Of a stretch of 64,000 nt of DNA, positions 36,795 to 62,085 are shown piece by piece (position 1 is the first letter of the stretch; every line of letters starts with the position of its first letter). The DNA lies in contig NZ_VOLO01000002.1 of assembly GCF_007954365.1 (NCBI RefSeq), positions 62,001-126,000 on the forward strand. The letters are read 5' to 3'. The position numbers and the translations under genes were made by a program. The notes below the pieces were generated by a model that saw only the letters and a list, made by a program, of their open reading frames with translations, ran no database searches and was not told where the DNA came from. This DNA comes from Frigoribacterium sp. ACAM 257. Lineage in GTDB: Bacteria; Actinomycetota; Actinomycetes; Actinomycetales; Microbacteriaceae.

Positions 36795-37319
36795 CTAGGA
36801 GGCGCGGGCCACCACGTCGCGGTCGTCCGGCGACCCGGCCTGGTCGGGCGAGGCGGCCTTGTCGGGCGAGGCGTCGTCGCCGATGGCCTCGAGCACGCGC
36901 CGGGAGAACGACTCGAGGGTCGAGGCGTCGTCGTGCAGCGCCGCGACGAAGTAGCGGCGGATCGCGGCCGTGTGGCCCCGGGTCGCCGAGAGCATGGCCC
37001 TGCGGCCGTCAGCCGTGAGCTCGACCCAGGTGCCCCGGGCGTCCGAAGCACAGTCGGTGCGGCGCACCAGGCCGCGCTTCTCCATGCGCGTGACCTGGTG
37101 GCTGACCCTGCTCTTCTCCCAGCCGATCTGCTCGGCGATGTCGCGCACCCGGAGCCTGCGGTCGTCGCTGCGGCCGAGGCCCACTAGGATCTCGTACTCG
37201 GGGGCCGAGACGCCCGAGTCGTCGTGCAGCCTGAGCTCGAGGGCACGGTCGAGCCGCCGGCGCATCGAGTAGAAGGCGTCCCAGGCGGCCCACTCGTCGT
37301 CGGAGAGTCGCTCGGCCAT
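36795..37319 (-). CDS. MarR-family regulator
   Basis: This 174-residue protein has a winged helix (LRVRDIAEQIGWEKSRVSHQ, VTRMEKRGLVRRTDCASDAR) typical of MarR repressors and a helical dimerisation part. The C-terminal tail has Ser-Pro-Asp repeats (DDASPDKAASPDQAGSPDD). TACACT (37326-37331, complement) ends six bases before the ATG (leaderless). It is divergent from the PutA-like gene with only 41 bp between the starts, so it very likely regulates that gene and itself. Confidence 0.88.
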   Translation of the reverse strand: MAERLSDDEWAAWDAFYSMRRRLDRALELRLHDDSGVSAPEYEILVGLGRSDDRRLRVRDIAEQIGWEKSRVSHQVTRMEKRGLVRRTDCASDARGTWVELTADGRRAMLSATRGHTAAIRRYFVAALHDDASTLESFSRRVLEAIGDDASPDKAASPDQAGSPDDRDVVARAS

Positions 37320-37325
37320 TCGCCC

Positions 37326-37354
37326 AGTGTAGGGACGGGGGTCCGGCCTATCCT
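37326..37354. promoter_or_regulatory. Back-to-back leaderless promoters of marR and the PutA-like gene
   Basis: TACACT for the minus strand (37326-37331) and TATCCT for the plus strand (37349-37354) each end six bases before their start codon. Each promoter's -35 must lie over or beyond the other's -10, so RNA polymerase can occupy only one at a time, and a regulator bound here would affect both. Confidence 0.5.
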
Positions 37355-37360
37355 CGACCC

Positions 37361-40300
37361 ATGTCCGATGTGCGCGCCGCCGATCTCACCTCCCAGGTCG
37401 TCGACACGGTGCGACGGTGGCTGGTCGTCGCGTCCTCGGTCCCCGCCGACGCCGCCGCCGAGCGCTTCGCGGCGTTGCTCCGCGACCCTGACGGTCTCGC
37501 CTTCGCTGTCGCCTTCGCCGATCGCGTCGTGCGTCCGGAGGACCCGGCGGTGGCCGCGCGCCAGCTCGACCGCCTGAGCCGGGACATGCCCGCCTCGCTG
37601 CCGTGGCAGCTCAAGGCCGCGGTCGCGGCGGGCGGCGGCTTCGGCCCGTTGGCGCCGCGCACGGTCGTGCCCGTCGCGCGCAGGGCCCTGCGACGACTCG
37701 TCCAGCACCTCGTCGTCGAGGCGGCCCCCGACAAGCTCGGCCCGGCCCTCGCGGCCGCAGCCGACGGCGCCCGCCTCGACCTCGTCCCGCTCGGCGAGCC
37801 CGTGCTCGGCGAGGCGGCGGCCCGCCGCAGGGTCGACGCCACGCGCGCGCTGCTCGAGCGCGACGACGTCCACCATGTGTCCGTGCCCGTGGCCTCCGTC
37901 GTCGGCACGGGCGCGGCCTGGGGCGCCGACGAGCGGGCCGCCGCCGCGGTCGAGGCGCTCACGCCCCTCTACGAGCTCGCGCTCGCCTCCGACCCCCCGA
38001 AGACGATCGACCTCGAGGTCGACGAGCACCGTCACCTCGATCTCGCCATCGACGTCTTCACCCAGCTGCTCGACCAGCCACAGCTCGCCGACCTCGAGGC
38101 CGGCATCGAGATCCAGGCCCACGTGCCCGACGCCCTGGCGTCCCTGCAGCTGCTGACCGACTGGGCGCGCGGACGCGTCGCCCGCGGCGGTGCCCCGATC
38201 CGCGTCCGGCTGACCGTGGGCGGCGTCGCGCTCGAGGCCGTCGACGCCGCGCTGCACGACTGGCCGGTCGCGACCCATACGTCCACGGCCGAGGCGCACG
38301 CGGCGCTGCTCCGGGTGCTCGACCACGCCCTCCGCCCCGTGTCGGCCGAGTTCGCCCACCTCGGGCTCGTCACTGCCGATCCGTTCGTCGTCGCCCACGC
38401 GTGGACCCTCGCGAAGCGGCGAGAGGTGACCCAGCACCTCACCGTCGAGATGCCCCTCGGCACGTCGAGGGGGCTCCTCCGGGCGGTGCGGGCCGAGGTC
38501 GGCGACCTCGTGGTGCGGGCCCCGATCGTGCAGCAGGGCGACCTCGAGGCCGCCGCCGACCACGTCGTCCGGCGTCTCGCGGAGGTCGCCGCGCCGGGTT
38601 CTCCCCTCGCCGCCGCTGCCGACCTCGCGCCTGAGGGAGCCGCGTTCGACCAGGAGGCGGCCCGCTACCGCGAGGCGGTCGCCGATGCCGAGGCGGCCGG
38701 CGACGACGACGTGCCGCCGCCGGTTCGCCGTCAGGACCGCTCGCGGCCCCACCTGGCCGTCGCCGACCTCGACCTCGACGGCTCGTCCTCGTTCCGCAAC
38801 GAGCCCGACACCGATCCCGGGCTCGAGGGCAACCGCGCGTGGGCCCGACGCGTGCTCGCGGCCTCGCGACGCTCGGACGCCGGGCTCGACACGATCGAGG
38901 CCGCGCAGGTCGACGGCGACGACGGCGCCGCGCTCGTCGACGAGCTCGTGACCGACGCCGCCCAGGCCGGTGCAGCGTGGGGCAGGGAGGCGCCCGCGAC
39001 GCGCGCCGAGCTGCTCGAGCTCGCCGCGGACGGCGTCGCGCGTCAGCGAGCCGCCCTGGTCGAGGTGCTCGTCAGCGAGACCGGCTCCGTGCTCGACGGC
39101 GCCGATCCCCAGGTCAGCGCGACGGTCGACTCGGCGCGGCACCACGCCGGCCTCGCCCGCGGCGAGGTGAGCGTCCTCGGCGCCCGGCACGCGCCTCCTC
39201 GGCTGACGGTCGTCGTGCCGTCCTGGCGCGCCCCCCTCGTGTCGGCGGCAGAGCCCGTGCTCGCCGCGCTCGCCGCGGGCAGCGCCGTCCTGCTCTGCCC
39301 GGCGCGTGAGTCGCGCCGCACCGCGGCCGTCCTGGCCGAGGTGCTGTGGGGCGCGGGGGTGCCGCGCGCGCTGCTCGTCCTGGCCGACCTCGAGCTCGAC
39401 TCCGAGGCCGGCCGCCGACTCGTGGGGCACCCTGCCGTCGACCGGGTGCGGCTGACGGGCTCGCTCGCGCAGGCCCGGCAGCTGCGGTCGTGGCGGCCGG
39501 AGCTCGACCTCGTCGCCGACGTGCCCGTCGCCGCCGTCGCCGTCGTGACCCCGAGCGCGGACGCCGACCTCGCCGCGGCCGACCTGGTCGCGGGTGCCTT
39601 CCGCTTCGCCGGCCAGGCCCCGTCGGCCTCGCGGACGGCCGTGCTCGTCGGCTCGGCTGCCCAGGGCGAGCGCCTCCGTCGTCAGCTCGTCGACGCGGCG
39701 GCGAGCCTGCGCACCGGCTGGCCGGACGAGGCGACGACGCAGGTCGGCCCGCTGATCGACCCGGCCGAGGGTGCCGTCCTCGAGGCCCTCACCGTCCTGG
39801 CCCCGGGCGAGAGCTGGCTCGTCGAGCCCCGGCAGCTCGACGACGACGGGGGCCTCTGGTCGCCGGGCGTCAAGAGGGGCGTCACCCCCGAGGCCGCAGC
39901 GCGGACGGCTGCCGCGGCGGCTCCCGTGCTCTGCCTGGTCGAGGTGGCCGACCTCGACACGGCGATCGACCTGCAAGAGAAGCTCAGCGCGGGTGGCTCG
40001 GCCGCCCTGCACAGCCTCGACGTCGACGAGGTCGACACGTGGCTGCGCCGCGTCCGGGCAGGCACGCTCGTGGTCGGACGACCCACGTCGCCGATGGTCG
40101 TCCGTCGTCGGCCGGCTGCCGCGTGGGGGCGCTCCGTCGTGGGGCCCGCCGTCGCGGCGGGGGGTCCCGACGGCCTGCTCGCCCAGGGATCGTGGCGGCG
40201 GCTGTCGCGCGACCCCCACCCGTCGCTGCGCCTCACCGGCGTTCCCGACGTGGTCGTGCCCGTGATCGAGGCAGCCAGGTCGTCCCTCTCGTTCGAGCAG

Positions 40301-40996
40301 TTCGACCGGGTCCGGACGGGCGCGGTCGGCGACGAGCGCGCCTGGCAGGCCCACGTCGGCGTGGCACACGACGCCTCCGCCCTGGGCGTCGAGCGCAACG
40401 TCCTGCGCTATCGGCCACGGCCCGTCCTCCTCCGCCTCTCGTCCGACGCCGACCTCTCCGACCTCGTGCGGCTCCTCGTGGCCGCCGCCCGCGTGCGCGC
40501 CCCGATCACGGTCAGCTCGGCGGTTCCCGTCCCGGCGTCGCTCGTCCAGCTGCTGCACTCGCCGGCGTCGCCGATGCCGGTCGGCGCCGTGGTCGTCGAG
40601 AGCGACCAGGCGTTCCTGGCCCGCGCCTCCGCCGGTCTGCTGCAGGCCCGCGAGGCCGGCCACGAACTGGACGACCTCAGCCTGCTGGCCCGCGCGACGG
40701 GGTCGCGCGACCCGGCGGCGGTCACGGAGGCCGACGCCGACGGCGACACCGAGGCCCCCGAGCCCGACGGCGACGCGGTCGCCGAGTACCGAGACCTGCA
40801 CGTCCGGCTCATCGGCGGCGACCCGCGGGCCCTGGCCCGCGCGGTCGGCGGCAGCGTCGACGTGGTGGTGCACGGCGGCGACGTGACCGACGAGGGCCGG
40901 GTCGAGCTGCTGACGTTCGTGCGCGAGCAGAGCGTGACGGTCACGACCCACCGTTCGGGGCTCGTCGACGCCGAGCTGCGCGACCTGCGGATCTGA
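37361..40996 (+). CDS. PutA-like proline dehydrogenase/aldehyde dehydrogenase fusion with degenerate active sites
   Basis: This 1211-residue protein follows PutA architecture: helical N-terminus, PRODH barrel (about 150-440), aldehyde dehydrogenase domain (about 490-990) and a C-terminal domain. Key residues are missing. The catalytic Cys position in GQxCSA is Pro754 (GQAPSA), the catalytic Glu of AETSGKN is Asp720 in VADVPVA, ExFGP is AAAAP and FGGWKRS is AAAWGRS. In the barrel, the LVKGA lysine is lost (RLTVGGV) and EMLEGM is EMPLGT. The frame is intact over 3.6 kb. It is probably a structural or regulatory derivative, not a catabolic enzyme. Confidence 0.8.
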   Translation: MSDVRAADLTSQVVDTVRRWLVVASSVPADAAAERFAALLRDPDGLAFAVAFADRVVRPEDPAVAARQLDRLSRDMPASLPWQLKAAVAAGGGFGPLAPRTVVPVARRALRRLVQHLVVEAAPDKLGPALAAAADGARLDLVPLGEPVLGEAAARRRVDATRALLERDDVHHVSVPVASVVGTGAAWGADERAAAAVEALTPLYELALASDPPKTIDLEVDEHRHLDLAIDVFTQLLDQPQLADLEAGIEIQAHVPDALASLQLLTDWARGRVARGGAPIRVRLTVGGVALEAVDAALHDWPVATHTSTAEAHAALLRVLDHALRPVSAEFAHLGLVTADPFVVAHAWTLAKRREVTQHLTVEMPLGTSRGLLRAVRAEVGDLVVRAPIVQQGDLEAAADHVVRRLAEVAAPGSPLAAAADLAPEGAAFDQEAARYREAVADAEAAGDDDVPPPVRRQDRSRPHLAVADLDLDGSSSFRNEPDTDPGLEGNRAWARRVLAASRRSDAGLDTIEAAQVDGDDGAALVDELVTDAAQAGAAWGREAPATRAELLELAADGVARQRAALVEVLVSETGSVLDGADPQVSATVDSARHHAGLARGEVSVLGARHAPPRLTVVVPSWRAPLVSAAEPVLAALAAGSAVLLCPARESRRTAAVLAEVLWGAGVPRALLVLADLELDSEAGRRLVGHPAVDRVRLTGSLAQARQLRSWRPELDLVADVPVAAVAVVTPSADADLAAADLVAGAFRFAGQAPSASRTAVLVGSAAQGERLRRQLVDAAASLRTGWPDEATTQVGPLIDPAEGAVLEALTVLAPGESWLVEPRQLDDDGGLWSPGVKRGVTPEAAARTAAAAAPVLCLVEVADLDTAIDLQEKLSAGGSAALHSLDVDEVDTWLRRVRAGTLVVGRPTSPMVVRRRPAAAWGRSVVGPAVAAGGPDGLLAQGSWRRLSRDPHPSLRLTGVPDVVVPVIEAARSSLSFEQFDRVRTGAVGDERAWQAHVGVAHDASALGVERNVLRYRPRPVLLRLSSDADLSDLVRLLVAAARVRAPITVSSAVPVPASLVQLLHSPASPMPVGAVVVESDQAFLARASAGLLQAREAGHELDDLSLLARATGSRDPAAVTEADADGDTEAPEPDGDAVAEYRDLHVRLIGGDPRALARAVGGSVDVVVHGGDVTDEGRVELLTFVREQSVTVTTHRSGLVDAELRDLRI

Positions 40997-41331
40997 GCCA
41001 GCCGCACGTCCGGGCTGTTCTCGAGGGGGGCTGCCGAGTCGCGGGCCCGAGCGGTCTGCGGGCCTGAGCGGTCTGCGGGCCTGAGCGGCCCTCTCGCGTC
41101 CCGTCCCCTGCGCACCCCTCCGTGATTTGAGAGTGATCCGCGCCGTCGAGGGCGGACTGCCCCGTCGGCCGGCTCTCAGATTTTCGATCCCTCTCGCTCT
41201 GCCCTGCTCGTGCCCGCCCCCCGCATATGCCGACCTGTGAGGCCGCCCGGCGCTCCTGATACCTGGTTCTCGCACCATCGGCGAGCCTGCGGTCGGCATG
41301 TGCGGAGCGGCCCGCGATCCGGTGCCGCGAC
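40997..41331. other. 335-bp intergenic region with tandem and inverted repeats, no gene
   Basis: I see no coding sequence here. It holds a 17-bp tandem repeat (GAGCGGTCTGCGGGCCT, twice plus a partial copy, 41049-41090), a possible weak terminator (TGAGAG near 41130 pairing with CTCTCA near 41173, followed by GATTTT), and the inverted pair of CGCAYATGCCGACC described separately. Confidence 0.6.
41222..41304. repeat. Inverted pair of the CGCAYATGCCGACC element
   Basis: CGCATATGCCGACC (41222-41235) and GGTCGGCATGTGCG (41291-41304) are inverted copies with one mismatch, 55 bases apart. The right copy is exactly the complement of the middle unit at 11682-11695. Confidence 0.65.
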
Positions 41332-41769
41332 TCAGGGCGTGCGGCGGCTGATCAGCTTCGACAGCACGATGGCGCTGCGGGTGTGGTCGACGTTCGGGGC
41401 GTTGCGCACGCGCTCGAGCGCCTCCTCGAGCGACGGGATGTCCCGGCTGCGCATGTGCACGATGGCGTCGGCGCTGCCCGTGACGGTGCCGGCGTCGACG
41501 ACCTCGGGCACCGTGCTGAGGATGCGCTGCAGCTCGGCCGGCGAGACCGTGCCCCGGCAGAAGAGCTCGACGAACGCCTCGGTGCCCAGCCCCTCGACGG
41601 CAGGGTCGACCTGGACGGTGAAGCCCTTGATGACGCCGTCGGCGACCAGACGGTCGACACGGCGCTTGACGGCCGAGGCGCTGAGGCCCACCGACGACCC
41701 GATGTCGCCGTAGCCCGCGCGGGCGTTCTGCCGCAGCAGATCGATGATGCCGTAGTCGAGGTTGTCCAC
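41332..41769 (-). CDS. Lrp/AsnC-family regulator
   Basis: This 145-residue protein has an N-terminal helix-turn-helix (DNLDYGIIDLLRQNARAGYG, GLSASAVKRRVDRLVADGVI) and an AsnC ligand-binding (RAM) domain. It lies divergent to ddaH-rocD, with palindromic TTGCGCAA sites between, so it is probably the arginine/ornithine-responsive regulator of that operon. TAGGCT (41777-41782, complement) ends seven bases before the GTG (leaderless). Confidence 0.9.
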   Translation of the reverse strand: MDNLDYGIIDLLRQNARAGYGDIGSSVGLSASAVKRRVDRLVADGVIKGFTVQVDPAVEGLGTEAFVELFCRGTVSPAELQRILSTVPEVVDAGTVTGSADAIVHMRSRDIPSLEEALERVRNAPNVDHTRSAIVLSKLISRRTP

Positions 41770-41792: not shown

Positions 41793-41818
41793 TTGCGCAA
41801 AAGGTCTGCGTTGCGCAA
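41793..41818. promoter_or_regulatory. Paired TTGCGCAA palindromes, Lrp operator
   Basis: Perfect palindromes TTGCGCAA at 41793-41800 and 41811-41818 are 18 bp apart, close to two helical turns. ATTGCG (about 41823) and ATATGCGC (41842-41849) could be further half-sites. They lie 56-81 bp before the GTG of ddaH and abut the lrp promoter, as expected for a divergently acting Lrp protein. Confidence 0.6.
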
Positions 41819-41873
41819 GATCATTGCGTCGAGCGCACCCAATATGCGCGTTGTAGGTGTGACACTGAACTCC

Positions 41874-42749
41874 GTGAGCATCGCCGCCGAGACCGTCCAG
41901 CCTTCTCCCGAAGCCCCGCAGCCGCCGACCAGACGTGCGTCGCACCGCAGCGTGCTGATGTGCCGGCCCGAGCACTTCACGGTCAGCTACCGCATCAACC
42001 CCTGGATGGACCCGCAGGTGCCGACCGACACCTCGCGCGCCGTCGCGCAGTGGCAGACACTCTACGAGACCTACCTCGGGCTCGGCTTCGACGTGCAGCT
42101 GATCGACCCGCTGCCCGGCCTGCCCGACATGGTCTACTCGGCCAACGGCGGCTTCGTGCTCGACGGCAAGGCGTACGGCGCCAGCTTCACCTACCCCGAG
42201 CGCCAGCCCGAGGGCCCCGCCTACATGGACTGGTTCGCCGACGCCGGCTTCGACGTGGTCGTGCCCGAGGAGGTCAACGAGGGCGAGGGCGACTTCCTCC
42301 TCGTCGGCGACGTCGTGCTCGCCGGGACCGGCTTCCGCAGCGCGTCCGACTCGCACGCCGAGGTCGCCGGGGTCTTCGGCCGGGAGGTCGTAGGCCTCAC
42401 CCTGGTCGACCCGAGCTTCTACCACCTGGACACGGCGATCGCGGTGCTCGACCCGGAGCCCGTGGACGGCGTGCACAACATCGCCTACCTCGAGAGCGCC
42501 TTCGACGAGCCGTCGCTCGCCGTGCTGCGCGAGCGGTTCCCCGACGCCGTGCTCGTGAGCCAGGAAGACGCCTCGATCCTCGGGCTCAACTCGTACAGCG
42601 ACGGCTACAACGTCGTGATCGCCGCGGCCGCCACCGGCTTCGAGCGCCAGCTGCGCGAGCGCGGCTACAACCCGATCGGCGTCGACCTGTCCGAGCTGCT
42701 GCTCGGCGGGGGCGGCGTGAAGTGCTGCACCCTGGAGCTGCGACGATGA
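41874..42749 (+). CDS. ddaH: Dimethylargininase (DDAH, amidinotransferase superfamily)
   Basis: This 291-residue hydrolase of the guanidino-modifying superfamily yields citrulline from methylated arginines. MVYSANGGFVLDGKAYGASF, the catalytic His in FYHLDTAIAVLD and the C-terminal catalytic Cys in GGGGVKCCTLELRR are present. I chose the GTG at 41874: upstream codons lie over regulatory palindromes, and GACACT (41861-41866) ends seven bases before it. rocD overlaps by four bases (ATGA). Pairing with rocD suggests arginine/ornithine use. Confidence 0.87.
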   Translation: MSIAAETVQPSPEAPQPPTRRASHRSVLMCRPEHFTVSYRINPWMDPQVPTDTSRAVAQWQTLYETYLGLGFDVQLIDPLPGLPDMVYSANGGFVLDGKAYGASFTYPERQPEGPAYMDWFADAGFDVVVPEEVNEGEGDFLLVGDVVLAGTGFRSASDSHAEVAGVFGREVVGLTLVDPSFYHLDTAIAVLDPEPVDGVHNIAYLESAFDEPSLAVLRERFPDAVLVSQEDASILGLNSYSDGYNVVIAAAATGFERQLRERGYNPIGVDLSELLLGGGGVKCCTLELRR

Positions 42750-44023
42750 CGACCGACACGACCCGCACCTCCTCGGCCACCGCCACCGCCTCCTCGGCCT
42801 CGGGCACGGCCGCCGCCACCACCGCCGCGATCGCGGTCGAGGACGCCTCGCTGGCGCACAACTACCACCCTCTGCCCGTCGTGGTGTCGACGGCCGAGGG
42901 CGCCTGGGTCACCGACGTCGAGGGGCGCCGGTACCTCGACTGCCTGGCGGCCTACTCGGCCGTCAACTTCGGACACGGCCACCCGACGCTCGTCGCGGCG
43001 GCCCGGGAGCAGCTCGACCGAGTCACCCTGACGAGCCGGGCGTTCCACAACGACCAGCTAGGCCCGTTCGCCGCCGAGCTCGCCGCCCTGCTCGGCAAGC
43101 AGATGGTCCTGCCGATGAACACGGGCGCCGAGGCGGTCGAGTCGGGCATCAAGGTCGCGCGTGCCTGGGGCTACCGCGTCAAGGGCGTGCGGCCCGGCGC
43201 CGCGAAGATCGTGGTCGCGGCGGGCAACTTCCACGGGCGCACGACGACCATCATCAGCTTCTCCGACGACGAGGAGGCGCGGGCCGACTTCGGTCCGTAC
43301 ACCCCCGGATTCGTGACGGTGCCCTACGGCGACCCCGCCGCGCTCGAGGCCGCGATCGACGACGACACCGTCGCCGTGCTGATCGAGCCGATCCAGGGCG
43401 AGGCCGGCGTGGTCGTGCCGCCGGAGTCCTACCTGCCCGAGGTGCGCCGCATCACCCGCGAGCGGAACGTGCTGTTCATCGCCGACGAGATCCAGTCGGG
43501 ACTCGGGCGCACCGGCGCCACCGTCAGCTGCGACCTCGTCGACGTCGTGCCCGACCTGTACCTGCTGGGCAAGGCCCTCGGCGGCGGCATCGTCCCCGTC
43601 AGCGCCGTGGTCGGCGACCGCGACGTGCTCGGGGTGCTGAGGCCGGGCGAGCACGGGTCCACGTTCGGCGGCAACCCGCTCGCCGCCGCCGTCGGCCTCG
43701 CGGTGGTGCGGATGCTCGCGACCGGCGAGTGGCAGGAGCGCGCGACGCGACTCGGCACGCGCCTCCGTGACGGCCTCGAGGCCCTCGTCGGCTCGGGGGT
43801 CGTGACCGTCCGCGGGGCCGGCCTCTGGATGGGGATCGACATCGACCCCGCCGTCGGCACCGGCCGCGAGGTCTGCGAGGAGCTGATGCGCCGCGGTGTG
43901 CTCGCCAAGGACACGCACGGCTCGACCATCCGGCTCGCGCCGCCGATCGTGATCACCGAGGAGGAGGTCGACGAGCTCGTGTCGACCCTCGGCTCGGTGC
44001 TGGGCGACCTGCGCCGGGGCTGA
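42746..44023 (+). CDS. rocD: Ornithine aminotransferase
   Basis: This 425-residue class III PLP aminotransferase converts ornithine to glutamate semialdehyde. YLDCLAAYSAVNFGHGHP, MNTGAEAVESGIKVAR, NFHGRTTTIISFSDD, the lysine motif LLGKALGGGIVPVSAV and HGSTFGGNPLAAAVG are the OAT pattern. An Ala/Ser/Thr-rich leader of about 28 residues precedes the domain. The ATG overlaps the ddaH stop. A UUCG hairpin ends the operon. Confidence 0.93.
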   Translation: MTTDTTRTSSATATASSASGTAAATTAAIAVEDASLAHNYHPLPVVVSTAEGAWVTDVEGRRYLDCLAAYSAVNFGHGHPTLVAAAREQLDRVTLTSRAFHNDQLGPFAAELAALLGKQMVLPMNTGAEAVESGIKVARAWGYRVKGVRPGAAKIVVAAGNFHGRTTTIISFSDDEEARADFGPYTPGFVTVPYGDPAALEAAIDDDTVAVLIEPIQGEAGVVVPPESYLPEVRRITRERNVLFIADEIQSGLGRTGATVSCDLVDVVPDLYLLGKALGGGIVPVSAVVGDRDVLGVLRPGEHGSTFGGNPLAAAVGLAVVRMLATGEWQERATRLGTRLRDGLEALVGSGVVTVRGAGLWMGIDIDPAVGTGREVCEELMRRGVLAKDTHGSTIRLAPPIVITEEEVDELVSTLGSVLGDLRRG

Positions 44024-61735: not shown

Positions 61736-62085
61736 TCGTCATCGACCAGCGTTCGTCGGTGCCGCCCTTCGAGCAGCTCCGGCAGCAGCTCCTCGCGGCG
61801 ATCGGCTCGGGCGAGGTGGCGGCCGGCGCCCGGCTGCCCACCGTGCGGCGGTTCGCAGAGGACCTCGGCATCGCGCCCGGCACCGTCGCCCGCACCTACC
61901 GCGAGCTGGAGCAGGCGGACGTGCTCGAGACCCGCGGCCGGCACGGCACGTTCGTGACCGCCGGCGGCGCCGAGGCCGAGGCGCGGTCCGCCGCGGCCGA
62001 GTTCGTGGCGCGGCTGCGCCGCCTCGGGGTGGACGCGGCGACGGCGCGGGGGCTCGTCGACGCCGCCTTCGACGCGTCGGCCTGA
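61732..62085 (+). CDS. YtrA-subfamily GntR regulator
   Basis: This 117-residue protein has a GntR winged helix (PPFEQLRQQLLAAIGSGEVA, RLPTVRRFAEDLGIAPGTVA, RTYRELEQADVLETRGRHGT) and a short C-terminal dimerisation helix, the size of YtrA-type regulators that usually control adjacent membrane proteins or ABC transporters. The GTG start overlaps the membrane protein stop (GTGA). Hairpin terminator at 62101. Confidence 0.9.
   Translation: MIVIDQRSSVPPFEQLRQQLLAAIGSGEVAAGARLPTVRRFAEDLGIAPGTVARTYRELEQADVLETRGRHGTFVTAGGAEAEARSAAAEFVARLRRLGVDAATARGLVDAAFDASA

Follow-up and report, generated by a model that had tools for sequence, protein, structure and literature searches.

A PutA homologue of Frigoribacterium, probably a pseudoenzyme for both PutA reactions, is retained under purifying selection

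Introduction

Type B PutA proteins, as defined in PMC5293562, carry a proline dehydrogenase (PRODH) barrel and the aldehyde dehydrogenase (ALDH) domains of a Δ1-pyrroline-5-carboxylate (P5C) dehydrogenase (P5CDH) in a single chain of approximately 1100-1200 residues that also has a C-terminal domain. Here we describe PutA2, a dismantled homologue of these bifunctional proline dehydrogenase/glutamate-semialdehyde dehydrogenases, which is encoded on the forward strand at positions 37361..40996 of a 64,000-nucleotide window from Frigoribacterium sp. ACAM 257 (Microbacteriaceae; positions 62,001 to 126,000 of contig NZ_VOLO01000002.1, assembly GCF_007954365.1), the numbering of which is used throughout. 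The 1211-residue protein resembles the type B enzymes of Corynebacterium (structure 5ux5) and Rhodobacter capsulatus in its length, the order of its PRODH and ALDH domains, its C-terminal domain and its predicted fold. Unlike them, it has lost active-site residues of both domains and is encoded by a genome that also contains a separate intact PutA, here termed PutA1. Comparative sequence analysis suggests that PutA2 is probably a pseudoenzyme for both reactions that is under selection for a non-catalytic role.

Pseudoenzymes are well known, and what is unusual in the present case is the size of the protein, the loss of two chemically different sites, the repetition of this loss and the survival of intermediates. 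The pectin-digesting enzymes of beetles are small, secreted proteins. In that family, too, dead members have been retained (PMC6549527, in part), whereas PutA2 is a homologue of a 1200-residue bifunctional catabolic enzyme. In Trypanosoma brucei, the S-adenosylmethionine decarboxylase (AdoMetDC) prozyme is another dead paralogue that has been retained alongside its active counterpart (PMC5201418); in contrast to it, PutA2 has undergone loss repeatedly across lineages, intact orthologues survive, and a partnership with PutA1 is hypothetical. Non-catalytic roles have also been reported for the trifunctional, ribbon-helix-helix (RHH)-containing PutA of enterobacteria and for the PutA of Ralstonia (parts of PMC5293562 and PMC9132996), but there the enzyme remains active, and no DNA-binding domain was detected in PutA2. 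No PutA pseudoenzyme was found among the open-access PMC matches listed, as judged by titles and the starts of abstracts.

Results

Both active sites of an intact reading frame are dismantled

The original prediction of an intact 1211-residue PutA homologue was borne out, as the frame is open from ATG to stop and codes for an N-terminal arm and alpha domain (37361..37750, residues 1-130), a PRODH barrel (37751..38680, residues 131-440), the ALDH (P5CDH) domains (38801..40195, residues 481-945) and a C-terminal domain with a C-terminal flap (40196..40993, residues 946-1211). Pfam matches are to Pro_dh (residues 134-411) and Aldedh (residues 522-932), the closest solved structure is Corynebacterium PutA 5ux5 (E 3e-162), and by homology the protein fits the type B architecture. 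It scores 121 bits against a cut-off of 747 for the NCBIfam equivalog NF008869, a score that alone does not separate PutA2 from PutA1. An AlphaFold2 model of residues 1-1198 (predicted local distance difference test, pLDDT, 86.4; predicted template modelling score, pTM, 0.86) superposes on 5ux5 with a Z score of 49.3 and a root-mean-square deviation of 2.4 over 947 residues (Foldseek E 1.7e-68), and a model of an independently dead copy from genus g32, L161, reached similar values (pLDDT 84.3, pTM 0.86). DNA binding of the kind known from PutA, one of several non-enzymatic roles initially proposed, is not supported: Pfam gave no match of any kind before residue 134 at E values up to 1, the RHH domain of trifunctional PutA included, and the modelled N-terminus is helical and resembles the PutA arm. 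The other proposed roles, those of a sensor, a scaffold or a partner of a true PutA, remain candidates.

Residue calls were made in alignments of 30 and 75 proteins, with scoring in a larger set, and the motif changes first read from the sequence all hold on alignment. Within the ALDH domains the nucleophile Cys is replaced by Pro754 (39620..39622), the general base Glu by Asp720 (39518..39520), SGKN by PVAA, the E-x-FGP motif (EYFGP) by AAAAP at residues 851-855 (39911..39925) and FGGWK(K/R)S (FGGWKKS) by AAAWGRS at residues 919-925 (40115..40135), all on the forward strand; in the PRODH barrel VVKGA has become LTVGG and EMLLGM has become EMPLGT. Further losses, not noticed initially, are those of the PRODH Lys (Pro176), the PRODH Tyr (Arg386) and the oxyanion Asn (Arg623), while the Arg pair 404/405 of the PRODH substrate site is kept. 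In Sinorhizobium PutA (SmPutA) the relevant residues are Cys844, Glu810, Asn707, Phe1010, Lys265, Tyr473, Arg488 and Arg489 (PMC12398946, in part), to which equivalences were assigned from motifs and their spacing, not from a direct alignment with SmPutA. Of the residues expected in a functional PutA, the window copy thus lacks both the catalytic Cys/Glu pair of P5CDH and the Lys and Tyr that accompany the Arg pair of the PRODH site. The only cysteines of the protein, Cys646 and Cys858, both lie off-site, so that no nucleophile occupies the catalytic position and an intact active-site Cys was rejected; an alignment placing an intact Cys/Glu pair elsewhere in the protein was sought and not found. 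From these residues we infer that catalysis by PutA2 is absent.

Active-site changes recur within a distinct PutA clade

Retention was scored at 20 positions of our own choosing, of which 8 match the SmPutA residues and the rest are motif positions of the PutA and ALDH families (position 219 was scored as kept if Asp or Glu), and copies keeping 13 or fewer were called dead, a threshold that we set ourselves. Partial sequences (L140, L175, L176) and duplicates of earlier loci were dropped. Orthologues of the window protein share 93% (Frigoribacterium sp. PhB116) and 86% (F. faeni) identity with it, and a full-length PutA2 is present in 15 of 16 Frigoribacterium genomes, the copy of the sixteenth (G006) being frame-broken and excluded from scoring. 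All 15 full-length copies keep 5-11 of the 20 positions. In the sister genus g5, all 20 are kept in each of the six full-length PutA2 proteins. Kept counts among the 57 full-length PutA2 proteins of g32, which exclude those of genomes G268, G285 and G311, run from 20 down to 6: all positions are kept in 15 copies, the PRODH set is kept and the ALDH set changed in 7, the reverse occurs in none, and both are changed in 35. By comparison, PutA1 keeps all 20 positions in 10/10 sampled g32 proteins, as do 66 of 68 PutAs from outside the two decayed groups. The two exceptions are L133, a truncated g5 copy counted here and not among the six above, and L056 (genome G248 of genus g76, which has two PutA copies), where the PRODH lysine, one arginine and the ALDH asparagine are lost, possibly reflecting early decay in another genus.

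Across all PutA2 scored, 45 of the 78 full-length proteins are dead. Among these 45 the PRODH Lys176 is kept in none, Cys754 in 2, Tyr386 in 4, Asn340 in 8 and Lys286 in 24. The Asp720 substitution is not universal, since Glu is retained at this position in 5 of the 15 Frigoribacterium proteins.

PutA2 is a distinct PutA clade: in a tree that combines 48 of the 78 PutA2 proteins and, as outgroups, 13 PutAs of other families, a branch supported at 100 sets the PutA2 of the three genera apart. All trees were built in quick mode with Shimodaira-Hasegawa-like approximate likelihood ratio test (SH-aLRT) support only and drew warnings of long branches and unequal composition, and the PutA2 root rests on the outgroups of the tree of 48 PutA2 proteins, where they fall into more than one group. 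On the tree of all 78 proteins a minimum of 5 changes is required for the dead state, 6-7 for loss of the Cys and 6 for that of Lys176. As the rebuilding of many active-site residues is implausible, we read these changes as repeated, independent losses. The ALDH site would tend to change first and the PRODH site later, an order that rests on the 7-to-0 count in g32 across related species, which are not independent events. PutA2 proteins intact at all scored positions are still extant in other species, namely those of g5 and some of g32.

A canonical PutA1 accompanies PutA2

The question of whether the genome has a second, canonical putA was answered by a full-length PutA1 on the same contig, which is 46% identical to PutA2 and has canonical motifs; the putA1 and putA2 loci are far apart. 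PutA1 is present in 16/16 Frigoribacterium genomes, and PutA matches number two or three in every one of the 60 sampled g32 genomes.

Selection persists, with relaxation mostly in the catalytic domains

Selection on a protein without known active sites, as had been proposed, is supported by the ratio of nonsynonymous to synonymous substitution rates (dN/dS), by neutral simulation and by codon-position bias. In 11 close Frigoribacterium pairs, which share species, dN/dS of PutA2 is 0.11-0.21, and that of PutA1 in the same genome pairs is 0.055-0.107. Neutral simulations with the fourfold-site spectrum (300 runs) gave dN/dS means of 1.41-1.51 with a minimum of 1.16, and a mean of 2.8-4.6 stop codons per gene, with only 10 of the 300 runs free of stops. 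Among the gap events in nine close pairs, 17 of 19 are multiples of three, and the remaining two, of 25 and 2 nucleotides (nt), lie 31 columns apart in one pair and sum to 27. Across nine close pairs, forward-frame differences at codon position 3 exceed those at positions 1 and 2 by factors of 4.0 and 5.7, respectively, and on this basis we rejected, as the selected frame, an antisense frame of 1371 residues that spans the whole gene (37184-41299, reverse strand) and looks like a by-product of high GC content.

The distribution of constraint along the protein was compared in g32 from pairs with no species in common (9 dead, 7 intact). From intact to dead copies, dN/dS rises from 0.120 to 0.239 in the PRODH barrel and from 0.068 to 0.116 in the ALDH domains, changes from 0.093 to 0.074 in the arm and alpha domain and from 0.079 to 0.097 in the C-terminal domain, and shows a smaller rise, from 0.090 to 0.143, at the extreme C-terminus. 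Relaxation after death is therefore mostly confined to the catalytic domains, with little or none in the C-terminal domain or in the arm and alpha domain, the latter having the lowest dN/dS of the compared regions in dead copies. Medians over all pairs (dead 0.150, 34 pairs; intermediate 0.203, 24; intact 0.149, 69) were set aside in favour of the non-overlapping pairs, because the same species enter them repeatedly and a real difference is masked. In Frigoribacterium, likewise, the arm and alpha domain has the lowest dN/dS (0.09; 0.16-0.18 elsewhere), and the two C-terminal parts (0.16 and 0.18, against 0.19 and 0.23 in PutA1) are constrained equally in the two proteins.

The same pattern is seen in individual residues. 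In 20 representatives hand-picked from the 45 dead copies, the fraction of intact-invariant residues that persists is 0.85 in the arm, 0.90 in the alpha domain, 0.92 in the C-terminal domain and 0.87 in the flap, as against 0.65-0.69 in PRODH and 0.74-0.83 in ALDH. The C-terminal domain (residues 946-1090) is PutA2-specific and retained in dead copies: in g32 its identity between dead and intact PutA2 is 0.75 and that to PutA1 is 0.30. Identity to PutA1 is 0.45 for the g32 arm, 0.52 for the g32 alpha domain and 0.27 for residues 1-30 of the Frigoribacterium proteins. The least conserved windows, at 391-480, surround the end of the barrel, and only 3 positions are near-invariant in the dead Frigoribacterium clade and at the same time unlike the active consensus. 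With its catalytic residues lost, its predicted fold kept and purifying selection maintained, PutA2 would qualify as a pseudoenzyme.

The divergent MarR gene and promoter spacer are conserved

The tight divergent pairing of putA2 with a gene for a MarR-family regulator (36795..37319, reverse strand), which had been taken as a sign of regulated function, is conserved across genera and activity states. The two genes are separated by a promoter spacer of 41 nt (37320..37360), of which 29 positions are invariant in 19 loci (14 from Frigoribacterium and 5 from g5; L011, 66% identical to the window spacer, was left out). Among 14 of the 15 Frigoribacterium loci the spacer is 92% identical, and identity to the g5 spacer is 87%; the corresponding figures for fourfold sites of putA2 are 59% and 53%. 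A TATCCT box six bases upstream of the putA2 ATG would fit leaderless transcription. We rejected a MarR operator shared with putA1, as the genome has one exact site for the spacer pattern and one with three mismatches; a reversed control of the pattern gave one match.

Downstream lie the conserved neighbours for an Lrp/AsnC-type regulator (41332..41769, reverse strand) and a DDAH-like hydrolase (41793..42749, forward strand). The order of a glycosylase-like gene, divergent marR, putA2, Lrp and DDAH genes is kept in 8 + 2 compared Frigoribacterium loci and in g5 loci L089 and L096, and at the g32 loci L090, L091 and L097 these genes are more spread out. A search for MarR covered 29 of the 57 g32 loci (the others have short flanks) together with L090, L091 and one more, and a MarR gene was found within 1.5 kb upstream in all 29, 4 of which hold dead copies. 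The single-copy putA of another genus (L098) sits between MarR and Lrp-DDAH-RocD genes, a placement by which PutA2 looks like the resident copy. A class-III aminotransferase gene of uncertain start (42740..44023, forward strand), which we take to be RocD-like, was detected at E 1e-80 in just 5 of the 16 Frigoribacterium genomes, so that retention of PutA2 does not follow it; the Lrp and DDAH genes stay in the compared loci while the RocD-like gene is mostly absent.

Discussion

The loss of both active sites in several lineages beside PutA1, while frame, promoter, arm and C-terminal domain were kept, points to a pseudoenzyme whose precursor already had a second role. According to this reading, which we consider probable, ancestral PutA2 would have combined enzymatic activity with a further function, structural or regulatory, and the presence of PutA1 would have made its catalysis expendable. 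What remains may be a protein-protein, scaffold or regulatory function carried by the PutA2-specific C-terminal domain together with the arm and alpha domain at the N-terminus, in a protein made when the divergent MarR regulator permits. The retained parts point to protein-protein contacts, and a scaffold or regulatory partner is our leading guess. We tentatively extend this to the PutA2 of Microbacteriaceae in general, which may be dual-function proteins in which a non-catalytic assembly of arm and C-terminal domain, perhaps a regulatory module acting together with the divergent MarR, is selected and proline oxidation is an optional activity discarded at least five times, with complete enzymes, ALDH-changed forms and doubly dead proteins all preserved as successive stages in extant species; this wider proposal seems plausible to us, if short of probable.

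Several observations weigh against a selected pseudoenzyme. Arg283 is kept in 45/45 and Arg405 in 41/45 dead copies, and with the persistence of these substrate and flavin arginines a ligand may still bind; one Frigoribacterium copy (L010) retains the catalytic Cys. The G006 gene (L083, 7566-11184) is interrupted twice, each time by the deletion of one base within a G/C run, although its flanks carry two more such deletions, which makes a sequencing error possible. Three of the 60 g32 genomes are without a full-length PutA2, in assemblies that are incomplete or fragmented. In seven more distant Frigoribacterium pairs dN/dS is 0.28-0.61 (PutA1 0.152-0.342), values that are high partly because synonymous sites saturate, and faster or relaxed change between subclades may also contribute. 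Overall dN/dS in g32 is higher for dead (0.148, 9 pairs) than for intact copies (0.092, 7 pairs). The alignments behind both structure models included intact PutAs and may have helped both, conservation of the spacer also serves marR, and no MarR was found at the L091 locus, which holds the dead copy L068, although one was found at L090. As to the three g32 genomes (G285, G268 and G311), PutA2 is present there in two pieces, once across contigs, in assemblies that are partly poor.

Among the alternatives, the one that survives best is that PutA2 resembles a prozyme, a type of protein defined by its activation of an active paralogue through hetero-oligomerisation. Dead PutA2 would then bind to PutA1 as a subunit and adjust the activity, stability or channelling of PutA1. 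PutA1 is present in every Frigoribacterium genome and at least two PutA matches in each of the 60 g32 genomes, the arm, alpha and C-terminal regions are those that are kept, and there is precedent for a dead paralogue that activates its partner (PMC5201418, in part). However, the retained C-terminal domain is the least PutA1-like part of the protein, as are residues 1-30 in Frigoribacterium, and the two loci are far apart. A C-terminal domain so unlike that of PutA1 mildly disfavours a simple, interchangeable PutA1 subunit, although the arm and alpha domain, equally well kept, are not especially unlike PutA1. We regard a prozyme-like role as possible but rather unlikely.

Less likely still is a ligand sensor acting with the divergent MarR, a split version of the sensing by trifunctional PutA. 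The MarR-putA2 pairing is kept across genera and activity states, and in Frigoribacterium and g5 so is the 41-nt spacer; part of the arginines for ligand or flavin binding persist, and Ralstonia PutA is reported to regulate in response to proline and cofactors (PMC9132996). On the other hand, residues of the PRODH pocket (Lys286, Asn340, Tyr386) are often lost in dead copies, the spacer pattern is not matched exactly anywhere else in the genome, and the dead copy L068 has been retained at a locus in which no MarR was detected. A new catalytic activity built from new residues in the old pockets would agree with the full fold predicted to be kept and with the residual constraint in the PRODH and ALDH domains, but with only 3 near-invariant positions that differ from the active consensus in the dead Frigoribacterium clade, and with the least conserved windows around the end of the barrel, it is very improbable. 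Finally, a slowly decaying pseudogene that by chance is not yet broken, for which the broken G006 copy, the relaxed catalytic domains, the long PutA2 branches and the higher dN/dS between subclades can be cited, is strongly disfavoured by the open frames in 15 of 16 Frigoribacterium genomes, by close-pair dN/dS far below the neutral 1.4-1.5, by a promoter spacer whose conservation greatly exceeds that of fourfold sites and by the little or no relaxation of the arm, alpha and C-terminal domains in dead g32 copies.

It is difficult to disentangle a moonlighting function from catalysis, and in PutA2 evolution seems to have separated the two several times independently, leaving relatives available at each stage of loss. 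If intact PutA2 were compared with its ALDH-changed and doubly dead counterparts in closely related species, the role of the protein and the point at which catalysis becomes dispensable would be revealed. With 45 of 78 PutA2 proteins scored as dead, names such as proline dehydrogenase/P5C dehydrogenase, when given by homology, may cover genes without such activity.

A search of plasmids found 3 that bear PutA, which adds little. The PutA1 proteins of g32 (L002, L069, L168-L178) group with PutAs of other families and away from their Frigoribacterium and g5 counterparts, a hint that intact PutA1 was acquired more than once and, from the grouping with other families, that it may be of foreign origin.

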